From assembly GCF_029784135.1 (NCBI RefSeq), contig NC_073746.1, positions 145,332,556 through 145,396,555 of the forward strand: 64,000 nucleotides of DNA. The letters run 5' to 3'. Positions 3,364 through 63,423 of this stretch are shown piece by piece (positions within the stretch are counted from its first letter, which is position 1; each line of letters opens with the position of its first letter). This stretch comes from Toxorhynchites rutilus septentrionalis (Eukaryota > Arthropoda > Insecta > Diptera > Culicidae). The notes below the pieces were generated by a model, which ran no database searches, was not told the DNA's origin, and saw only the letters and a program-made list of their open reading frames with translations. The position numbers and the translations under genes were made by a program.

Positions 3364-4654
3364 AAGTCTGCTTCATTTAATATTGGAACACAAACAATTA
3401 CGTGTAGTTCAGTCATTTATTAACGAATTCATAATTTGTTTTTCATACAAATGTAGCATTTTCTTTACTCTTTCATAAAAAAAATTTAAAATATTATTCA
3501 TTGCTGTTTCGAAGAAATTCTCGTACTTTTCCCGTAATACGGCACATTAGGCGGCGCATACCCTTTTCATCCACCGTTTTGGCGATTTGATTCCACCAGT
3601 TCTTCATTTGAGTCATGTTCCTAACAAGTTTTCCCTTTGCCTTAAGCCTCCGCCCAGTATTTCTCTATCGGCCGGAACTGGGGGCAGTTTGGGGGGTTGA
3701 GGTCCTTCGGTATTACGCTGACCCCGTTCGTTGCGTACCATTCCATAACCGTTTTGCTGTAATGGCAGCTTGCGAGGTCCGGCCAAAACATTACTGGACG
3801 GTCGTGGGCACGAATAAACGGCAGAATCCGTTTCTGTAGGCACTCTTTTTTGTAGACTTCTGATGTCATTGTCTTGTCAGTGAGAAAGACTTTGGTTTTC
3901 TGTCCACAACTGCATATCCCCTGCCAAATCATGTACTTGCGGGCGAATTTATCCGCAAACACGAACTTAAATTTTGCAGGTACATCCCCCCGAGCCGTCG
4001 CCAAATAAAATGTTTGACCTGGGATTTGCCCAAAGTCCGCCTTCACGTAGGTCTCATCGTCCATCAGAATACATCCGTCGAACTTGGTCAGCACTTGGTC
4101 GTACAGCTTTCGAGCACGGATTCTGGCCACATTGTTCTGCTTCAGCGTCCGATTTGGCTGTTTGCTGGCTCGGAATGACCTTATTCCTTCCCGGAGACGA
4201 ATTCGTCGCACCGTACTGTGAGCGGCCTGGAACTTATTGGCCAAATCGCGGTCTGAAAGATTGGGATTCCTCTTGACGGCCTTGATGACTTTCCCACGCA
4301 GTTTCCGGTCGACAGTTCCACTCCGACGCTTCGAATGCGGCTTCCGAGCCGTCGTCAATGTTTCCTTGTACTGCTTGATAACACGCCATACGGTATTTCT
4401 GGGCATTTTAAGCTGTTTAGCTAGCTTAGATGCCGACAACAATGGATTTTCAAGAAAACTGTGCACGATTTTATCTCTCCATTCGGCTTCCATGGCGGTT
4501 GTTTACAAAATGCTATCGTTTGGTGTTATGACATAAATACATGGTGAAAGGTAATGAATTTCCCGACACGTGGGTGAAAAAAGTTTCCAAATCCGTCCAC
4601 TAGGAGCGCACAATGAGCAAAAGAATTTGTTCCAATATTAAATGAAGCAGACTT
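3364..4654 (-). mobile_element. DD37E (ITm/mariner-like) DNA transposon, complete ends
   Basis: Inverted termini of about 28 bp begin AAGTCTGCTTCATTTAATAT at 3364, and the same sequence is read on the other strand from 4654. TA dinucleotides flank both ends (3362-3363 and 4655-4656), matching the TA target duplication of Tc1/mariner elements. Length is 1291 bp, usual for the family. It carries one transposase on the minus strand. Confidence 0.93.
3494..4493 (-). pseudogene. DD37E transposase with a late frameshift
   Basis: The main frame runs from ATG 4493 to a stop at 3642 (283 codons). The N-terminus has helix-turn-helix motifs (about residues 5-120) for TIR binding. The catalytic triad is visible: first Asp in LMDDETYVKADF, second in FWPDLASCHY, and Glu in PIEKYW, with exactly 37 residues between the second and third. 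A frameshift straight after this Glu moves the remaining ~55 codons (helical, Arg/Lys-rich, stop at 3494) into another frame. The family is normally about 330-350 residues, so the C-terminal tail is lost from the main product. The protein would have catalysed cut-and-paste transposition at TA sites; this copy is probably inactive. Confidence 0.9.
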
Positions 4655-34271: not shown

Positions 34272-35577
34272 AAGGGTGTGTCACATCAAATTGCATCACG
34301 GAAAAAACGCTGTAGAAATTCGCCCAGTAGAACGATCGTTTTGAAAATTTTAGACAGTAAAATAAAAACTATTAAACAACTTTTGGCATTCTTTGGCAAC
34401 TTTTTATTCATACTTCGAGCCCAAGCCCGTATGCTCGCACCTTCCTCTTTACCCCGTCCATAAGGTTCTGTACAACGTCAGGTTGTAGTTTTTTTTTGAA
34501 CAGAAATCCATTTTCTCTTGAAGTCCGCCTTCGATTTGACAACTTTTGGGTTCTTCCGGAGGGCCTGCTTCATAATCGCCCAATATTTCTCTATTGGGCG
34601 AAGCTCCGGCGCGTTGGGCGAGTTCATTTCCTTTGGCACGAAGATGACCCCGTTGGCTTCGTACCACTCCAACACGTCCTTTGAATAGTAGCACGAAGCG
34701 AGATCCGGCCAGAAGATGGTCGGGCCCTCGTGCTGCTTCAATAGTGGTAGTAAGCGCTTCTGTAGGCACTCCTTAAGGTAAACCTGCCCGTTTACCGTGC
34801 CGGTCATCACGAAGGGGGCGCTCCGCTTTCCGCGAGAGCAGATCGCTTGCCACACCATGTACTTTTTGGCAAACATGGATAGTTTCTGCTTGCGAATCTC
34901 CTCCGGAACGCTGAATTTGTCCTCTGCGGAGAAGAACAACAGGCCCGGCAGCTGACGAAAGTCCGCTTTGACATAGGTTTCGTCGTCCATTACCAGGCAA
35001 TGCGGCTTCGTCAGCATTTCGGTGTACAGCTTCCGGGCTCGCGTCTTCCCCACCATGTTTTGCCTTTCGTCGCGGTTAGGAGCCTTCTGAACCTTGTATG
35101 TACGCAGGCCCTCCCGCTGCTTGGTCCGCTGGACGAATAAACTTGACAAATTCAGCTTATTGGCGACATCCCGGACCGAACTTCTCGGATCACGTCTAAA
35201 CTGCTTAACTACGCGCTTGTGATCTTTTTCACTGACGGAGCATCCATTTTTGCCGTTCTTCACCTTCCGGTCGATGGTTAGGTTCTCGAAGTATCGTTTT
35301 AGTACTCTGCTGACCGTGGATTGGACGATCACCAGCATCTTACCGATGTCCCGATGTGACAACTCCGGATTCTCGAAATGAATGCACAGGATTAATTCAC
35401 GACGCTATTTTTCGTTCGACGACATTTTTCCACATTTACGAAAAATTGACAGTGAAGCATGGCCAACGTGATCTATACACTCTTATCTGATTATAAGCGA
35501 AAGCTGAAGATATAATTCCTAAAAATTAAATTTCTACAGCGTTTTTTCCGTGATGCAATTTGATGTGACACACCCTT
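34272..35577 (-). mobile_element. DD37E DNA transposon (second family), inserted in the retroelement
   Basis: Inverted termini of about 48 bp begin AAGGGTGTGTCACATCAAAT at both ends, flanked by TA (34270-34271, 35578-35579). Length is 1306 bp. The termini differ from those of the 3364-4654 element but match the copy at 42376-43933, so two DD37E families are present. Confidence 0.94.
34408..35425 (-). pseudogene. DD37E transposase with nonsense codon and late frameshift
   Basis: The original start is probably ATG 35425 (MSSNEK), followed by a TAG six codons later. The longest frame then uses ATG 35362 to 34478 (294 codons). HTH motifs occupy the first ~115 residues. Catalytic residues: LVMDDETYVKADF, IFWPDLASCYY and PIEKYWAIM, with 37 residues between the second and third. 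A run of nine A in the coding sense near 34490 marks a frameshift; the remaining C-terminus (LQPDVVQNLMDGVKRKVRAY) ends at 34408. Two simple lesions make it inactive, so the copy is fairly young. Confidence 0.92.
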
Positions 35578-51335: not shown

Positions 51336-53315
51336 AAAATTTCAAATGCATTCTGTTGTTGAGGTGAGGAAGTTGGTTCAGTATCTACTACACGTTATGA
51401 CGATGCATCGAAATTGTTCGAGCGAAATCACGAATGCAACGTAATTTCAAATCGAGATTGCAGGAAAACTAAAGCCAAAATTTGGACATTTGAAACTATG
51501 GCTTGTGATCTTCAAAATGTTTTGCATGACTCGGAAGAAATATCATTCATTGATTGAAAGTATTCTACTGGATGACACATCCGTTTTTTTTCTATTTATA
51601 ATACAAATCAAACAACAGAAGCATATACATTTACATAACAACATGGACTGGCAACATATCTCGATTCGACAGATTTTATTGCCTGTTTCTAGATAACACC
51701 GGTCCAACACCTTTTTTAATTCGAAACATGCATACTAAATTGGACCAAAAATATTGCCTTATGCAAAAGGCAAATACTTATACAGTTTTATTTATCGACA
51801 GGACATTTTTGAATTTGTCGCGAGCTTGATCTGTTTAGGGGTATTTTTAAATTTTCTCGTGTCCCCAGGCGATTTTGTTAAGCGTACGTTTTATCTAATC
51901 TATTTAAATGAGATATAACCGGATAAACATGGAGTAGAATGGATGACATTTCACTGTTCCTGAATGCCGAACGAAGCTATAGAGAAAATCTGCAAATATC
52001 TTCATCAATTTTTTCAGATATATAAACGCTACATTCTATGTGAATTAATGGCTAAATATGAAATAATTTTCGGTAAACGAGATGAATTCGAACAAGCTTG
52101 AACCCTGAACCTATACATTCGATCGTTTACCACAGAAGAGACACCGAACGAAAATGTAGGGTCTAAACGTTTACCTGCAATGTCATTATTCGTGAGCCGA
52201 ACGACCATGAAAGCCTCGTGCTATATTGAGGAAGTGAAGCGAAAAACATGCATTTCATCGACACAAACGACACTTCGTCACCCCGCGGAAGCAACGCAGC
52301 CACCGTCGATCTGAGCAACGGAGTCACTAAGTACCCTCGAGCAAACATCCGCTGTCATCTTGTTCTCAGATTGAGAGCTCTTCAGAATATTCAACACTAA
52401 CTGTGTTCGCTTGATCTCAATTAATCAAAAATTGAACTCCGCGGAAGTTAAATGCGTTTGAGTTGGGAATTTTAATTATCGAAACAAAGCTTCCGTAGAT
52501 GCTGACTGCTAGAAACCATTAGATCATTAACCTTAGATCGCCAACACGAGATCTACACGGTGGTCGCAATAGAAAGTTAATAATTCCCAGTCAGTAACTT
52601 ACGGACTCCTGTCAAAGCGCTCGGTGGTCATCTTGCTAATCAGACTTCGCCCCTAATCACTCGAGCGCGAGGCCGGCCCTTTTCGCTTCACGTCGACGAA
52701 AGCTGCAACTTAATTATAGCAATCCCCAGTGTCATACTGCGCTGATTAATAATCAAAAATAGTAATTGTTTGTTTTCTCTTTTTTTTTCTTCCCCAGAAA
52801 TGATGTGTTGAGTGAACACACGCCTCGTATGCAGAGCTTCCCGGCTGCCCAAGGTAAGATATGTATGGATATGTCAATACCGAAGCCCCGTCACTCATGA
52901 TTATATAATTGCGCCGCGTTAAGTATCCAAAGTGCCCCGATATTAGTTTTGTTGCCAATGCGCAAAAAAAAACGACAAACAACCACAGTAAATATTAGTT
53001 GTGCGAGTGTAATGCACTTTCCGCATCCAGGCGGAAGATTGCCGAGCATACGTGGGTAGATAAGAAAGCGGTCGGTTTGTGGCTTAGAAAACTCATAAGT
53101 GCACTTTTATCATTCGCCGCAAAGCGTTTCTCCGTTGTACAAAAGGAAAAGTAATGAGCATTGACATGGCACAAAGAAATTGTGCTTCGTTTACCCAGGT
53201 GTGCAACGAGCCGTCTCAAGTGACGGCATTGCTAGGAATTTGCCCTTGATCGTAGACTGTGATACTGGACAAAGATACTCATTCTAGATCTGAGTATAAT
53301 TGGAAGGAAGAATAT
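51336..53315. other. No gene called; 52.1-53.2 kb is repeat-poor
   Basis: AT-rich to about 52090. From there to 53240 the composition is balanced, with no transposon signature and only short, unrecognised frames. Host regulatory or intronic DNA is plausible. Confidence 0.35.
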
Positions 53316-53319
53316 AAAC

Positions 53320-53565
53320 AATAGATAATAAATGACAAATAATAAATAATAAATAATAAATAATAAATGATAAATAATAAATAATAAATAATAAATAATA
53401 AATAATAAATAATAAATAATAAATAATAAATAATAAATAATAAATAATAAATAATAAATAATAAATAATAAATAATAAATAATAAATAATAAATAATAAA
53501 TAATAAATAATAAATAATAAATAATAAATAATAAATAATAAATAATATATAATAAATAATAATAT
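53320..53565. repeat. Heptanucleotide array (AAATAAT)n
   Basis: About 33 head-to-tail copies of a 7-bp unit (AATAAAT in rotation), nearly perfect in the middle and degenerate at both edges (AATAAATGACAAAT, AATAATATATAAT). Antisense frames of Ile/Tyr/Leu/Phe are artefacts of it. Confidence 0.95.
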
Positions 53566-56160: not shown

Positions 56161-56165
56161 GTGAT

Positions 56166-57175
56166 TGTGGCTGCAGGGTATCGTGCTGATTACGCTGGAG
56201 GAAAGATCCTCTCTGGAGCCACCAAATGTGGCTGCAGTTCGAGATCGTGCTGATGACACGAAGGGAAAGCCCTTTACTGGACGCTATGTGGTAGGCCAGA
56301 TCACGTAGAGCGCATAACGAGTATGCGCCTACTGGTGCGATCCGGTAGTACCGCGTCACTTGGGAGTTTGGCCGGGCGGAGCCAAGGGAAGGAAAAGGGA
56401 GAGGAAGGGTGGTTGGAATTTCGGATCTTTGGAGGAGGGGTGTTCAATACTTACCAGCGCTTGTTGCGCTGGGATCTGCCGGCGATGATGTCCAGGGTGC
56501 TCCCGATGGTGTCCAGGATGCTCGGGCGATGTCCAGGGTTGTGATACGTTTATGACAAAAAAGAGGGGTTCGGTACTTCGCCACGACGCTCCTACGTCCG
56601 TGGTATGGTTGAGAGTGTCCAGTTGAGAGTGCCTTTATTCTGTTCAAGTTTTCTCTTATATACATTAATTTGTTACAGACATTGCCTTCTTATCTACCCC
56701 AGAAGGGTGTAGCATAAGAGAGAGAAAATTACAATTATTTATTCTAAGCCAGACGGGCGAACGAGGGATGATTATTAACACGCTCGCAGGCGTGTTATCT
56801 TTTCCTCTCCGTTTTATTACTTATTGTCCTAGCTCGGAGATAGGCTCCGTTTATAGCACCCATAGTGCTCTCTTTTTGGGATTTCTCCCGTCCTTCGGTA
56901 TTTACGATCGGAGATAGGCTCTGATCGTAAACACATTACGTCGTTTTGCTTATTTTTGTTTTGTTCTCCTTCCCGGCGGGTTATCGCTGGCCGGAGGAGT
57001 TTTATGATATTTAGGTTTTCAGCTAGCAATAATCGCACTTCGGAAAAACCTCATTAGTTACGATAAAGCCACTGCGCAAGCTATTCTGTGTATTTAGGAT
57101 AGAGCGCGATCTAAGCATCCGCTCTATCGTTCTCGCCATGAATCACGCTCTAAAGGCATGATCCGTGCGGCGACA
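56166..57175 (-). repeat. 3' LTR
   Basis: 1010 bp, TGTGGC...GCGACA as read on the plus strand. Compared by eye with the 5' LTR, the only difference seen is T/C at about 56783 against 62882. It has the same internal 61-bp duplicated end (56166-56226) as the other LTR. Confidence 0.95.
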
Positions 57176-57228
57176 TACCGGCCCTCGTAAATCGCGTAAG
57201 GCAGATTTACCAATTGAGCTACGCCGCA
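57167..57228 (-). other. tRNA-like fold across the 3' UTR / 3' LTR junction
   Basis: On the minus strand GCGGCGTAGCTCAATTGGTA (acceptor half and A-box-like D arm) is followed by an anticodon-arm-like CTGCCTTACGC. CGCCGC, formed by the first bases of the LTR, can pair with GCGGCG. The T arm is missing, so this is not a tRNA gene. The LTR begins inside the stem. Confidence 0.45.
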
Positions 57229-57891
57229 TCTGTTTCTAATAATTTTTTCTTCTATGCTTCTGATGCTGTATCTTTTATTACTGTATAATTCGCAATTGTT
57301 TCATCTTATATTCTTTTTTCAATATTATGTTTTTCTTACATTCAATTTCCTAACCTGAAGTTATACAATGCAATTCGTTTGCTATGAGCGGATGACTTCC
57401 GTTTATTCTTCATACATGGTGTGTTATAAATTCATTCTTTGCTTCGTTACAATTTATTAGCCACTTTGCCTTCAGATTCATTTACAATGCAAATCCTATT
57501 CATTTTAGCTTTGTGTTACACTTCATTTTACTCTCGCAGGAGTATTCAATTTTCAAATTCAATACTTCTTCTATCCATAGAAGAGTCTTCAACTTTATGT
57601 ACTTTAATAGCCATACAACGGCGCCTAATTGCTTCTTTCACTGAACAAATTATATTTTTTACTATTACATTAGACGACATATCTTCTCGTCAGTTTATGC
57701 AACCCTTTGTTGCTTATATTTCTTATTCATTGTCAGATTCCTCATTTTGACTACAATTATTTCATATTCAATTATTTTCTTCTATTTTACATTTTGTGTA
57801 CTTATGGTCTAACAGAGTTTTAAATCACTTTTTCTCTTCAATTCTTCGGCATGCCGCCTTGCTTCATTGAACGTCCCTCCAATGCTTGGTT
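57176..57891 (-). other. 3' UTR of the LTR element
   Basis: AT-rich, noncoding. No long purine tract directly precedes the 3' LTR (sequence there is GAGGGCCGGTA), so the polypurine tract is unclear. Confidence 0.7.
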
Positions 57892-60800
57892 TTAAAGCGC
57901 TGTGTCTTCTAATTGTTGCCGGTTCAATAGGTTGTCCATTCGGATATGGACATCGGGTCCTGCTGTGGCTCTGGATCTGGTGCAGCATCTTCGTCTGCAG
58001 CAACGTAGATAAATGATCCCGATTATAATCATTAGTATGCTTACGAAAAGGGCGGCGTTCCTCCAAAGATACTTCGATTTCGGATGGAAGGGATCCAAAC
58101 TGTTGTACACGGTTATCATAGCGTTGTTATCGTAGGGATTATCGGGCTTCGGCTCCACCACATCTTTTACGGTGTCATTGAATTCGTCCAATAGGTGATC
58201 GGCCACCTGGTATTTAGATTTGAAGTATGTTGCAATCTTCTTGTTCATGCCATTTAAACTTGCATGTATCGTTTTGTTGTTGGATTGTATACGGCAATCT
58301 GGCTGGAGAGTTACTACTGCTGCCTCATAAGGTGGTGACATTACCACGTTGTCGCAATGTATAACTATTGCCTTTGTATCGGATGCATAGTATAAAACGG
58401 TATTAGGAGTGGACAGTGTCTCCATCATAGCGTAAGGCGTGGTTAACAGTTTTGTTGCACATTTGCGGGTACTTGCGATATGCAGTATGACAGCCGCTAC
58501 GCAATCCACTTCCTTACTCAGTTCTGGTTGAACCGTAATTAAATGCGTATCATTCAGTTTTGTTAGTTCGATCGATGGGTAGAAGAAGTCTTGGTTGTGG
58601 CCTACCGCGATGCGATCATGTTCTGTTACAATAATTGAGCCATTCTCAGCCCGTGGGATTGGTATTATCTTAAATACCTCGAACTCAACTTTGTTGATGA
58701 CAACACTCGTCATGGTAATTATGAGGGAGCCGTTGACTACACGCGTGTTGTATTTTACGGCTGATGGGTGATCCAGGACAATGTAACCAGTTGGCAACGC
58801 TTGTGAAATGTTTTTTCTGGTTTGGGCTAGTTCGTCGACGGACAAAGGAAACGTTCGAACTTTCCTATATCTATTCAATGTTCCATCGATAACTTCTCGT
58901 GCCAATATCGTGGTTTCTAACATCGTTGTTCGTAACCTTTGAACCTTATCCGCAGAATATAATTGTTTTAATTGAGTCATGTCTTTGTACAATTTATAGT
59001 ATCTCTCGTTAAGCTGTTCTCCCATTTTGGACGCCTTGGTATTCATTTTTACCATTGACTCCGATATTTGGTGAATTTTTTCGTCTTCATGAACCCTCAT
59101 TGCCTGTAGCTCGTTTTCCATATCGTCGCTACCAAATATTAAGTCCGCCAAAAAACCGAAGAACCCTTTGCTTCGTTTAGTTCTCGTTGTCTGCTTGATC
59201 TCATCAATCGCATCATCGCATAAACGTTCAACAGATGTTGCAATTTGCTCTAGGAGAGAGTCTTCGATGACAAACTCCATGTCTTTCATCGCTACTGTCA
59301 CATTATTCCGTATCGAGTTAATTACTTCAATGTCTTCATCGGGCACTACGTTGGTTTGTATATTCGTTTGCCATATGCCTCTATGTAATAAGCACGTTCC
59401 TTCGTGGTCGAACATTAGACCGTCTTTGTCAACGGGTTTTATGGATATAGCGTTGATCAACGTGAACGACATTACGAACAACATCATTATTTTCAATATA
59501 CGTGAGATGTTGAACCAAGATTTAGAAATGCCTTTTGTTGTAGTCTTATTTCTACGTCTTTTTTTTCGCGTTGATTTTTTTGATTTATCTTCGGTCGAGG
59601 TTATCAGCATTACGTTGTTAGAACTCGCGGTGGTATACTTGTTGACCGGTTCTAAGGGCAAGGGGTTGTCGTTGACTCTTATTGGTTGTCTGATGCTAAA
59701 TTCATCGATTGAGAAGTGCGCAGCCATCATATCTCGTAGTTCTTTATCGTGTTGCAATAGTTCATGATCGTTTTGATAAATTGATCTGACATTACCGAAA
59801 ATAAACCATCCAAGCTTACTTCGGACTGCTATTGGGTCATTGTCACTTCCCCTTCTTGTTTCCATGGCGGTAAGCAAATGGCTTTGATTCAGCCCTATGA
59901 GAATTGTTGGCCTTGCAAGCTCGTAGCTTTCGATCGGAAGGTTTTCCAAATGCGGATATTTTGTAGCCATTGCTTTGTAGTTCATTGTCTGAGTCGGAAG
60001 TTGTAAGTTTTTAATGGTTCTTACACCGTCAAGTCGGTACGACCTTCTGGACGACCCCTGAATGCGAACTTGTACTTTTCTACTGTTCAGCTCGTTTCGA
60101 GACACGTCCTGTGTCCATTTTAATTGTAGTGGTTCTTCTCTGCCGTATAGGTCCAAGGAGTTTGCCATTTCCTCATCTAGCAATGTCAGGGAAGACCCTG
60201 TGTCTAGGAAGGCATATGTATCGACTGAATGCCTTCCGTGTTGAAGTGTTACTGGAATCACCTGGTAGTATATCTCGTTTGCTGAGGACTTGTGAATATT
60301 GCAGTTGGCTTCAAGCGGAACTGTAGCGGACGTATTACGAGGTGTTGGTTCCATGTCTGGATTCGAGTGTAACATTCTGTGGTGGTGCTTGTTACATCCA
60401 CTCAAGCCGCACCTCCTAGATCGTCTGCAATCTTTAACCATATGTCCGGTGCCTAGACATCCGAAACATATTTTACATTGTACTGCCAATCGACATCTTT
60501 TTTGGATGTTGGAGTTCTTAAATTCCGTGCAATCGAAGATTTTATGGTTATTCGAGCAAACCGGACATTTCATGCGTGGCATCTCTTGATGGACATGTAT
60601 CTGGCTTCTAACTGTAGAAGGTAGAGGAGAAGCCATATTCCTCATTATTTTGGCGTGAGGTTTCAGCCAGTTACTCATTTCTTCTAAAGATGGGGCATCA
60701 CCAGTCGTCGTTCTATGGCGTGTCCATTCTATTTGCAGGTTATAAGGTAGTCTCTTAACTAGGTCTTCTATTAACCTCGCATCTAGTAGGTAACCTCTTT

Positions 60801-61749
60801 GATTTATGATCGTCATGTTTGCCACCATATTTTCTAAAGCATCTGACATTTCGATTATTATTGATCTACTTTCTCTTTTAAGCTTCTGTAGATCGTGCAG
60901 TAGTTCCTCATATATGAATTTAGGGTTTCCGAAATTTTCCTCTAGTCTCTCTATTATACTCGGAACATTTTCCGAGTTTATAAATAGTTGCTGCACGCTT
61001 CTAGCTGCGCGTCCTTCAAGGGCAGCTTCAAGTCTGGAGAGATTTTCATGATTGGAAAACGCACATTCTCTCGTGCTGACTTCGTAGATCCTTTTGAATT
61101 TAGCCCAATCTTTGGGCGACCCGCTGAATTTTGGCAAGGGAGTCAAAGCTTGCCTCTTCATTAGAATCGTAAAATCTCCATGCTGTGGAGCTGGCATCAT
61201 TGCACTCTGCTCCCAGCCAATTGATGGACCGGATCTCATTGGTAGTGGTGTTTGAATCGTTGCTCGGTCACGTTGTTGCCCGGAGATATTGATTAGGGGT
61301 TCAGTTGACTGCGCTTGCGCCGGAGAGCATGGTAATTCTGTTTGTCGCTGTGTTGCTATTGTCGTTGCGCCCACGACTAAAGCGTTGAGTGATGCCTGCA
61401 TTGTTACTATTTCCTTTTTTAATGTGGTTATGTTGTTGCGTTCGCTAACATGCATCTCAGCTAGTTGTGTAACTAGATTCGTCAGCTCCTCTATCTGTTT
61501 TTGTTCCCTCGAATTAGTTGAGGGATGAGACGCTGCAGGTGCCTGTGCCTTTCCCTCACTTTCGTTTGTTTTGGTAGGGGAACAAAGCGAGCATACTAAA
61601 TAGGTTTCCTCTTCAGTGGGTGTATGTCCTACACAGGAATGATGATAATTCCTTTTGCACTGTCTGCATTGGACCAGATTGTCTAGTTCAATTTTCTTGC
61701 CACATGCATCACAGCACGGGCGTGATGATCTCGTAAAGCTTGATATCAT
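57892..61749 (-). CDS. Fused Gag-protease-envelope polyprotein of the BEL/Pao-type element
   Basis: One uninterrupted frame of 1285 codons from ATG 61749. Residues 13-57: PHD-like zinc finger (CDAC, CRQC, HHSC, CSLC). About 80-120: coiled-coil-like stretch. About 200-365: DUF1759-type Gag (LPKFSGSPKDWAKF). 395-455: Cys/His knuckles (CPVC, CKIC..GHMVKDC). About 495-655: aspartic protease with FLDTGSS at 514-520. At about 700 the pre-RT linker ends and sequence turns in frame into an envelope-like part: hydrophobic signal segment 753-769, N-glycosylation sites, furin-type RTKR at 856-859 followed by a Gly/Phe-rich fusion-peptide-like segment (862-873), heptad-rich region about 875-950, transmembrane segment about 1231-1248, and a Cys/Arg-rich tail. 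RT, RNase H and integrase (over 1000 residues in relatives) are absent. No stop or frameshift, so it seems translatable. This is an insect endogenous retroviral element; function of the fusion is unknown. Confidence 0.93.
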   Translation of the reverse strand: MISSFTRSSRPCCDACGKKIELDNLVQCRQCKRNYHHSCVGHTPTEEETYLVCSLCSPTKTNESEGKAQAPAASHPSTNSREQKQIEELTNLVTQLAEMHVSERNNITTLKKEIVTMQASLNALVVGATTIATQRQTELPCSPAQAQSTEPLINISGQQRDRATIQTPLPMRSGPSIGWEQSAMMPAPQHGDFTILMKRQALTPLPKFSGSPKDWAKFKRIYEVSTRECAFSNHENLSRLEAALEGRAARSVQQLFINSENVPSIIERLEENFGNPKFIYEELLHDLQKLKRESRSIIIEMSDALENMVANMTIINQRGYLLDARLIEDLVKRLPYNLQIEWTRHRTTTGDAPSLEEMSNWLKPHAKIMRNMASPLPSTVRSQIHVHQEMPRMKCPVCSNNHKIFDCTEFKNSNIQKRCRLAVQCKICFGCLGTGHMVKDCRRSRRCGLSGCNKHHHRMLHSNPDMEPTPRNTSATVPLEANCNIHKSSANEIYYQVIPVTLQHGRHSVDTYAFLDTGSSLTLLDEEMANSLDLYGREEPLQLKWTQDVSRNELNSRKVQVRIQGSSRRSYRLDGVRTIKNLQLPTQTMNYKAMATKYPHLENLPIESYELARPTILIGLNQSHLLTAMETRRGSDNDPIAVRSKLGWFIFGNVRSIYQNDHELLQHDKELRDMMAAHFSIDEFSIRQPIRVNDNPLPLEPVNKYTTASSNNVMLITSTEDKSKKSTRKKRRRNKTTTKGISKSWFNISRILKIMMLFVMSFTLINAISIKPVDKDGLMFDHEGTCLLHRGIWQTNIQTNVVPDEDIEVINSIRNNVTVAMKDMEFVIEDSLLEQIATSVERLCDDAIDEIKQTTRTKRSKGFFGFLADLIFGSDDMENELQAMRVHEDEKIHQISESMVKMNTKASKMGEQLNERYYKLYKDMTQLKQLYSADKVQRLRTTMLETTILAREVIDGTLNRYRKVRTFPLSVDELAQTRKNISQALPTGYIVLDHPSAVKYNTRVVNGSLIITMTSVVINKVEFEVFKIIPIPRAENGSIIVTEHDRIAVGHNQDFFYPSIELTKLNDTHLITVQPELSKEVDCVAAVILHIASTRKCATKLLTTPYAMMETLSTPNTVLYYASDTKAIVIHCDNVVMSPPYEAAVVTLQPDCRIQSNNKTIHASLNGMNKKIATYFKSKYQVADHLLDEFNDTVKDVVEPKPDNPYDNNAMITVYNSLDPFHPKSKYLWRNAALFVSILMIIIGIIYLRCCRRRCCTRSRATAGPDVHIRMDNLLNRQQLEDTAL

Positions 61750-62252
61750 TATTCCTGAGTGAGGAGCCTGGTTGCCGTCACTCGATGTTTAAACTGTGTT
61801 ATAATGCGCAAGTGGCGAGGCGCCTGGTTGCCTTCGCCTTGTCTTAACCAAGCGTGGCGCCTAGTTGCCTACGCTGATTTCAAACGTTGCACAATATTCG
61901 TCTTCCGGCCCTCGTGACCGGATTACAGTTGATGTTGACGAGGCGCCTGGTTGCCTTCGTCCAACTATGCCTGACTGGCGATCGGTCTGTTTATAAAGCT
62001 GGACTTGTTTCAACAAGATGCCGATTTCTACGGCCTAATTTGTCCGTCTTTCAGGACCCAATTTCTGTTTCTTGAAATGCGCAATTTGCCTCTTGGCTAA
62101 ATGGTGATGTCCACAGACAACCTCACCTTGTTCGTCTTTACAAGACCGAACCTCTCCGTTCAACGACGGGCGCAAATCAATTTAACAGGATTCTCAACTC
62201 AACCGAGCGTGTTGTGAGTTCGTACAGTGTCTTTAGGAAAAGACTCCTCTCT
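61750..62252 (-). promoter_or_regulatory. 5' leader with four copies of an AGGCAACCAGGCGCC-type motif
   Basis: Plus-strand copies are GAGGAGCCTGGTTGCCGTC (61761-61779), GCGAGGCGCCTGGTTGCCTT (61815-61838), CGTGGCGCCTAGTTGCCTACG (61853-61873) and ACGAGGCGCCTGGTTGCCTT (61938-61962). Their position between primer site and gag suggests RNA structure or packaging signals, which is an inference. Confidence 0.7.
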
Positions 62253-62264
62253 GGAGCCACCAAA
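62245..62264 (-). other. Primer binding site candidate
   Basis: Directly after the 5' LTR the minus strand reads TTTGGTGGCTCCAGAGAGGA. TGG at the third base fits pairing with a tRNA 3' CCA end. The tRNA species was not identified. Confidence 0.6.
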
Positions 62265-63274
62265 TGTGGCTGCAGGGTATCGTGCTGATTACGCTGGAGG
62301 AAAGATCCTCTCTGGAGCCACCAAATGTGGCTGCAGTTCGAGATCGTGCTGATGACACGAAGGGAAAGCCCTTTACTGGACGCTATGTGGTAGGCCAGAT
62401 CACGTAGAGCGCATAACGAGTATGCGCCTACTGGTGCGATCCGGTAGTACCGCGTCACTTGGGAGTTTGGCCGGGCGGAGCCAAGGGAAGGAAAAGGGAG
62501 AGGAAGGGTGGTTGGAATTTCGGATCTTTGGAGGAGGGGTGTTCAATACTTACCAGCGCTTGTTGCGCTGGGATCTGCCGGCGATGATGTCCAGGGTGCT
62601 CCCGATGGTGTCCAGGATGCTCGGGCGATGTCCAGGGTTGTGATACGTTTATGACAAAAAAGAGGGGTTCGGTACTTCGCCACGACGCTCCTACGTCCGT
62701 GGTATGGTTGAGAGTGTCCAGTTGAGAGTGCCTTTATTCTGTTCAAGTTTTCTCTTATATACATTAATTTGTTACAGACATTGCCTTCTTATCTACCCCA
62801 GAAGGGTGTAGCATAAGAGAGAGAAAATTACAATTATTTATTCTAAGCCAGACGGGCGAACGAGGGATGATTATTAACACGCTCGCAGGCGTGTTATCCT
62901 TTCCTCTCCGTTTTATTACTTATTGTCCTAGCTCGGAGATAGGCTCCGTTTATAGCACCCATAGTGCTCTCTTTTTGGGATTTCTCCCGTCCTTCGGTAT
63001 TTACGATCGGAGATAGGCTCTGATCGTAAACACATTACGTCGTTTTGCTTATTTTTGTTTTGTTCTCCTTCCCGGCGGGTTATCGCTGGCCGGAGGAGTT
63101 TTATGATATTTAGGTTTTCAGCTAGCAATAATCGCACTTCGGAAAAACCTCATTAGTTACGATAAAGCCACTGCGCAAGCTATTCTGTGTATTTAGGATA
63201 GAGCGCGATCTAAGCATCCGCTCTATCGTTCTCGCCATGAATCACGCTCTAAAGGCATGATCCGTGCGGCGACA
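62265..63274 (-). repeat. 5' LTR
   Basis: 1010 bp, nearly identical to the 3' LTR. Flanked on the right by GTGAT (63275-63279), the partner of 56161-56165. Confidence 0.95.
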
Positions 63275-63423
63275 GTGATAGATGTAATTCTACACCATTT
63301 AATGTCCTTGCACTATCCACACTATCTGCAATATCCTTTTTTGTCAATATTTTGACAATTTTTCTTATCATCTGTGTAAGTAATATGTAACCGATTAAGG
63401 AGTGTATCGAAAAGTAGTCTTAA

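Follow-up and report, generated by a model that had tools for sequence, protein, structure and literature searches.

How can a long terminal repeat (LTR) retrotransposon multiply when it retains Gag, protease (PR) and an envelope-like glycoprotein (Env) and encodes none of the enzymes that copy and insert it? The question is raised by an element in the genome of the mosquito Toxorhynchites rutilus septentrionalis, located at positions 56166-63274, on the minus strand, of a stretch of 64,000 nucleotides (hereafter, the window; NC_073746.1, positions 145,332,556-145,396,555). In this element, which is of the BEL/Pao type, a single stop-free frame of 1,285 codons (57892-61749) leads from Gag through PR directly into Env, as an original prediction made from the letters alone had stated. 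No reverse transcriptase (RT), RNase H (RH) or integrase (IN) is present in the focal element, and related proteins continue into RT from the very point where the frame passes on to Env, so that it is classed only as a non-autonomous BEL/Pao member. The 3' LTR (56166-57175) and the 5' LTR (62265-63274) are identical at 1009 of 1010 positions, again in agreement with that prediction. Comparison of sequences across the genome suggests, with a probability of roughly 85%, that this is a protein-coding, pol-less element whose copying in trans is carried out by a Gag-Pol element that has the same ends and capsid (CA) but no Env.

An Env-less partner with the same ends

A Gag-Pol element carrying the focal LTR was predicted because two other Gag-Env lineages of this genome match Gag-Pol families. 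In the first of these, locus L032 matches the Gag-Pol elements L036/L037 in two segments of the 5' side (1,083 bp at 97.0% and 212 bp at 98.6%) and in two of the 3' side (637 bp at 99.4% and 788 bp at 96.2%), and the N-termini of the Gag proteins are identical over 177 amino acids (aa). In the second, L031 is 84% identical to L034/L035 over 1,349 bp. The 3' pieces fetched for these Gag-Pol elements yielded no Env. The P0002-type family of Gag-Pol elements combines a capsid like that of the Gag-Env elements (92% identity to L032) with a protease (93%) and a Pol like those of the Gag-Pol elements, and is in this sense a mosaic. An RT-like frame, which we take to be of the non-LTR type, lies directly beside a Gag-Pol copy (L035:2964-4001).

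A search with the focal LTR, in which the best 40 of 782 candidates were scored, adds one LTR pair and one single LTR to the known copies; locus L051, beside the single LTR, held nothing. The LTR pair encloses L050, which consists of the focal leader, Gag-PR, RT-RNase H-IN, a stop codon and the end of the focal 3' untranslated region (UTR), without Env. A second copy of this partner has a stop-free frame of 1,900 codons and LTRs that differ by one base in 998. Compared with the focal element, this second copy reaches 99.5% identity for the 5' LTR and 97.1% for the leader; within Gag-PR, the values are 90.0% (Gag N-terminus), 99.3% (CA), 95.4% (nucleocapsid, NC) and 85.0% (PR). Further downstream, identity is 71.9% over the 57 alignable bases of the linker, Env has no match, and the 3' UTR is 95.7% identical over its second half. 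The ends, the leader and the primer site are common to the focal element and an enzyme-coding partner, as trans-mobilization would demand. The proposal that the deleted form transposed recently and must be replicated in trans is supported by this pol-bearing partner. Of the accompanying idea of a parasite of full-length relatives, the dependence on the pol of a relative is likewise supported; the partner itself is not full-length because it lacks Env, and Gag-Pol-Env elements were found only as a distant family with Env about 40% identical. The partner Pol shares 53% identity with the Pol of a Gag-Pol family that has a frame of 1,762 codons, a length found exactly in 29 of the 35 copies listed. 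Two frames of 2,465 and 2,320 codons (G000:C2:325125009 and C3:24563463), with Pol 50-52% identical to that of L050, perhaps represent further Gag-Pol-Env families.

A 301-bp query across the junction between PR and Env matches the genome in full, at 99-100%, at 36 places (the window included) and partially at one more (L029), a focal copy that has lost about 0.3 kb more; these, like the other genome counts, are lower bounds from one assembly. The frame is free of stops over at least 1,297 codons, counted from stop to stop, in 28 of the 36 copies and over 1,287 codons in another one; the remaining seven contain stops, deletions or shorter frames. Among 20 of the 35 other copies, which were fetched whole, frames reach at least 1,297 codons in 14, 12 of which have 1,298. 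The LTR pairs, comparable in 19 of these 20, show no or one difference in the best aligned piece (for L019, the comparison spans only 534 bp), and perfect 5-bp target duplications flank 18 of the 20 (that of L027 is not perfect and L020 is not scorable). Given the 36 copies, the nearly identical LTR pairs and the separate target duplications, the focal family behaves as a mobile element, and its copies are so young that open frames alone tell little about selection. Two of the focal copies, which lie at G000:C2:36000-49500 at a distance of 6 kb, have three LTRs in all, apparently a tandem with one LTR in common.

Gag alleles were compared among the 20 fetched copies and the one in the window, at sites where L050 has a base. 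The minor allele is the L050 base in 63 of 78 cases, including all 33 of those that occur in at least two copies, with about 2.7% expected by chance. Such partner-type alleles run in tracts (frame nucleotides 5-161, 211-432 and 1008-1251), and between nucleotides 601 and 1000 the focal element and L050 are identical. Template switching between RNAs packaged together in mixed particles would leave such tracts, and they can be read as its traces. An apparent signal of purifying selection inside the focal family (ratio 0.59, P 0.006) was withdrawn because the Gag variants are mostly the base of the partner.

Age of the pol-less layout and the origin of the deletion

A search of the genome with the focal Env (best 75 of 265 candidates scored) identifies, among the matches listed, 10 diverged loci at 71-83% identity; L030-L032 were examined nearly whole and L038-L044 by the stretch upstream of Env. 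Gag-PR joins Env directly, without RT-IN, in nine of the ten, L044 being Env only. Relative to the frame in the window, identity is 79% for L030 and 71% for both L031 and L032, the linker gaps among the four are whole codons, and open frames are kept in L031 and L032; the frames of the other seven loci are shorter. Judged from these comparisons, the loss of pol is old, not recent.

The ratio of nonsynonymous to synonymous substitution rates (dN/dS; NG86, bootstrapped) in Env has medians of 0.10-0.14, with a highest upper bound of 0.19, for the pairs window-L030, window-L032 and L030-L032, and in Gag (CA-NC-PR) it amounts to 0.05-0.12 between clades (for window-L032, only 59 replicates out of 100 could be computed); where dS approaches or exceeds 1, as it does in several cases, the values are approximate. 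Few changes separate the closely related L031 and L032, for which the ratio is about 0.3-0.4. Among the loci examined, none joins a focal-type Env with pol, and for this reason the constraint on Env probably acted while the lineage was pol-less. The dN/dS estimate called for by the original prediction gives two answers, Env values of about 0.1 between clades and a neutral appearance within the young focal family.

The local family L033, with Gag-Pol-Env in a single frame of 2,314 aa (2,321 codons from stop to stop in 19 of 25 copies listed), offers a view of how the layout may have arisen. The Pol tail of L050 can be aligned to the Pol-Env linker of L033 as far as the signal segment of Env (E 2e-17 at 31% identity, the score coming mostly from the integrase end), so that the partner resembles a Gag-Pol-Env element that has lost Env, and the focal element one that has lost pol. 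Of four copies of the L033 family that were examined, L055 and L057 carry independent internal pol deletions with open frames and 9-nucleotide overlaps at the joint, and that of L057 gives the same Gag-PR-Env layout as the focal element; in L054 the overlap is 6 nucleotides and the frame is broken, and L056 has no deletion within the fetched stretch. Deletion of pol is an ordinary event; the spread and the retention of the deleted form are not.

This recurrence of deletions speaks for a simpler explanation: a template jump removed pol, the ends remained functional in trans and the Gag-Env protein is without a role. The changes in Env inside the focal family are also compatible with it, as they look neutral (8 silent and 18 replacement changes, ratio 0.84, P 0.41). 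However, the low between-clade dN/dS of both Env and Gag, the whole-codon linker gaps and the open frames of L031 and L032 speak against it, and we consider this explanation unlikely, although it fares better than the others discussed below.

Several further observations weigh, along with the neutral-looking Env changes, against an old protein-coding lineage served by an Env-less partner. L030 lacks about 50 N-terminal codons, a near-full frame is present in only three of the ten diverged loci, two of the ten contain stops, and the RTKR site of Env is replaced by RTNR in L032. Synonymous divergence is high, several pairs having a dS close to 1 or larger, and of the 24 dN/dS comparisons eight failed. 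Of the 78 minor Gag alleles, 27 (11 of the 33 that recur) equal L030 as well. Finally, only two partner copies are present among the best 44 of 5,649 candidates, and the frame of one of them, L050, is broken.

A retrocopied spliced RNA, in which the missing block would have been removed like an intron from a Gag-Pol-Env transcript, appears quite improbable: the leader contains a donor-like AAGGTGAG, though not at the junction, inspection by eye against L050, L034 and L033 reveals no clear GT..AG there, and deletions with short overlaps provide a simpler route. Slightly less probable still is an interfering or co-opted host protein, a restriction-type Gag-Env product as the original prediction had entertained; the frame is indeed intact with Env and without pol, but the 36 young, mobile copies with their nearly identical LTR pairs and separate target duplications leave this idea and that of a step toward co-option unsupported. 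An assembly misjoin or collapse, named beforehand, together with a junction confined to one copy, as what would refute the prediction, can practically be dismissed, as the same junction lies at 36 places with separate flanks and the same layout recurs in diverged loci.

Domains and ends of the focal element

All features described here lie on the minus strand, except for the strandless target duplications. The N-terminal part of the frame contains a weak match to a PHD/C1-type zinc finger (residues 13-56; 61582-61713), followed by DUF1759 in the capsid region (residues 208-346; 60712-61128; Pfam, E 2.3e-15) and a protease region with the motif LDTGSS at residues 515-520 (residues 491-655; 59785-60279), which is homologous to P0002-P0004. 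The Pfam aspartyl-protease match, like those to PHD and C1, is under the curated cut-off. DUF1759 and the homology of Gag-PR to proteins with Pao Pol domains identify Gag and PR as being of the BEL/Pao type, so that from the anticipated combination of a PHD-finger Gag and a DTG protease it is the finger that remains weak. The junction zone, where RT-RNase H-IN is missing by comparison with pol-bearing relatives, corresponds to residues 684-690 or so (59680-59700).

By motifs and hydropathy, the remainder of the frame resembles a retroviral-type, class I-like Env. An internal signal-type segment preceded by a basic stretch (residues 746-767; 59449-59514) is followed by the RTKR cleavage-type site (residues 856-859; 59173-59184), the hydrophobic segment SKGFFGFLADLIFG (residues 860-873; 59131-59172), which by its position may be a fusion peptide and is kept, with changes, in L030-L033, and a C-terminal membrane anchor (residues about 1227-1249; 58003-58071); the hydrophobic stretches extend over residues ~746-773 and ~1227-1256, and there are seven N-glycosylation sequons. 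The anticipated envelope-like glycoprotein is recognizable in these features, its heptads and fold being putative: a single-sequence structure model of Env has a pLDDT of 35, too low to be of use. No relative of the focal Env beyond the same genome was detected in Pfam, PDB sequences, a set of 5.8 billion proteins or viral contigs. The internal signal segment, with its predicted signal-peptidase cut, casts doubt on a stable membrane-anchored Gag-Env fusion, the product originally envisaged.

The LTRs are bordered by a 5-bp target duplication, GTGAT (56161-56165 beside the 3' LTR and 63275-63279 beside the 5' LTR), as is typical of BEL/Pao LTR retrotransposons. The 5' leader of 515 bp (61750-62264) begins with a primer-binding-site-like 20-mer abutting the LTR (62245-62264) that is identical in L032, L034 and L036 and has one mismatch in L031. 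The 3' UTR of 716 bp (57176-57891) ends in the polypurine-tract-like GAGGGCCGG, which is present again in other Gag-Pol families. Its segment ahead of the 3' LTR (57176-57236) is tRNA-like by eye, and ARAGORN gave no tRNA; the last part, a short stem with GAGGGCCGG, recurs in those families. The primer-site segment recurs as near-copies at the 3' ends of the LTRs (56166-56260 and 62265-62360), and an extra 61-bp unit is present at the LTR end in 11 of the 20 fetched copies (L010-L014, L017, L020-L022, L026 and L028), as if by slipped priming between tandem primer sites. Elsewhere in the window, there is a tandem repeat with a 7-base step (53311-53562), and two frames of 283 and 294 aa (3642-4493 and 34478-35362) are presumably Tc1/mariner-type transposase-like.

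Probable trans-copying and the possibility of a divided genome

Under copying in trans by the Env-less partner, one message of the focal element would yield Gag-PR-Env. The basic stretch and the hydrophobic segment would act as an internal signal that routes Env to the endoplasmic reticulum, where signal peptidase would free it into the secretory route, with Gag-PR staying in the cytosol. The latter could then co-assemble with the Gag-PR-RT-RH-IN of the partner in particles that both RNAs enter via the common leader; partner RT would start at the common primer site and partner IN would insert the copy, giving the 5-bp duplication. Env may coat such particles.

A more far-reaching and tentative proposal, possible but well short of even odds, is a bipartite retrovirus-like system, in which an ancestral Gag-Pol-Env element was split into co-packaged Gag-Pol and Gag-PR-Env units with common ends and capsid. 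Both units would persist through mutual dependence, each providing the functions absent from the other. The Env unit would add Gag relative to Pol, a ratio that a one-frame Gag-Pol element could not adjust otherwise, and Env units would change partner by template switching, swapping LTR, leader and Gag.

Known systems resemble the focal element in part. The Drosophila BEL/Pao element roo is described as a single gag-pol-env frame (PMC3087523), the layout of the L033 family; Env likewise ends one long frame in the focal element, which, however, has no RT-RH-IN, and whose matched partner has no Env. In barley, BARE2 is a dependent LTR element reported to use the proteins of BARE1 and to be packaged into its particles (PMC3735527), a reliance on a partner that is proposed here from sequence. 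Unlike the focal BEL/Pao element, which keeps Gag, PR and Env and is without pol, BARE2 is of the Copia type and without Gag expression, and its packaging has been demonstrated, whereas that of the focal element is proposed. An insertion of the chicken endogenous retrovirus EAV-HP is reported to lack the entire pol gene (PMC3554524), as does the focal element; that insertion, in a vertebrate alpharetrovirus-like element, is also without part of gag and env. The Anakin elements, for which defective forms are reported (PMC7642597), are, by their description, mosquito BEL/Pao elements with a glycoprotein as well; theirs is chuvirus-like, whereas the focal Env matched no known family by sequence, in searches that included no direct comparison of the two glycoproteins. 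In the PMC literature, judged at the level of search results, no Gag-PR-Env BEL/Pao element with a Gag-Pol partner was found.

Dependent LTR elements are best known as losing proteins and keeping ends. Here, an old lineage retained Gag, PR and Env at low dN/dS without the copying enzymes, and matched, Env-less Gag-Pol elements are present in the same genome. If the two kinds do cooperate, they would constitute a retroelement with a divided genome. The pairing makes it testable how Env can persist in elements that are unable to copy themselves.

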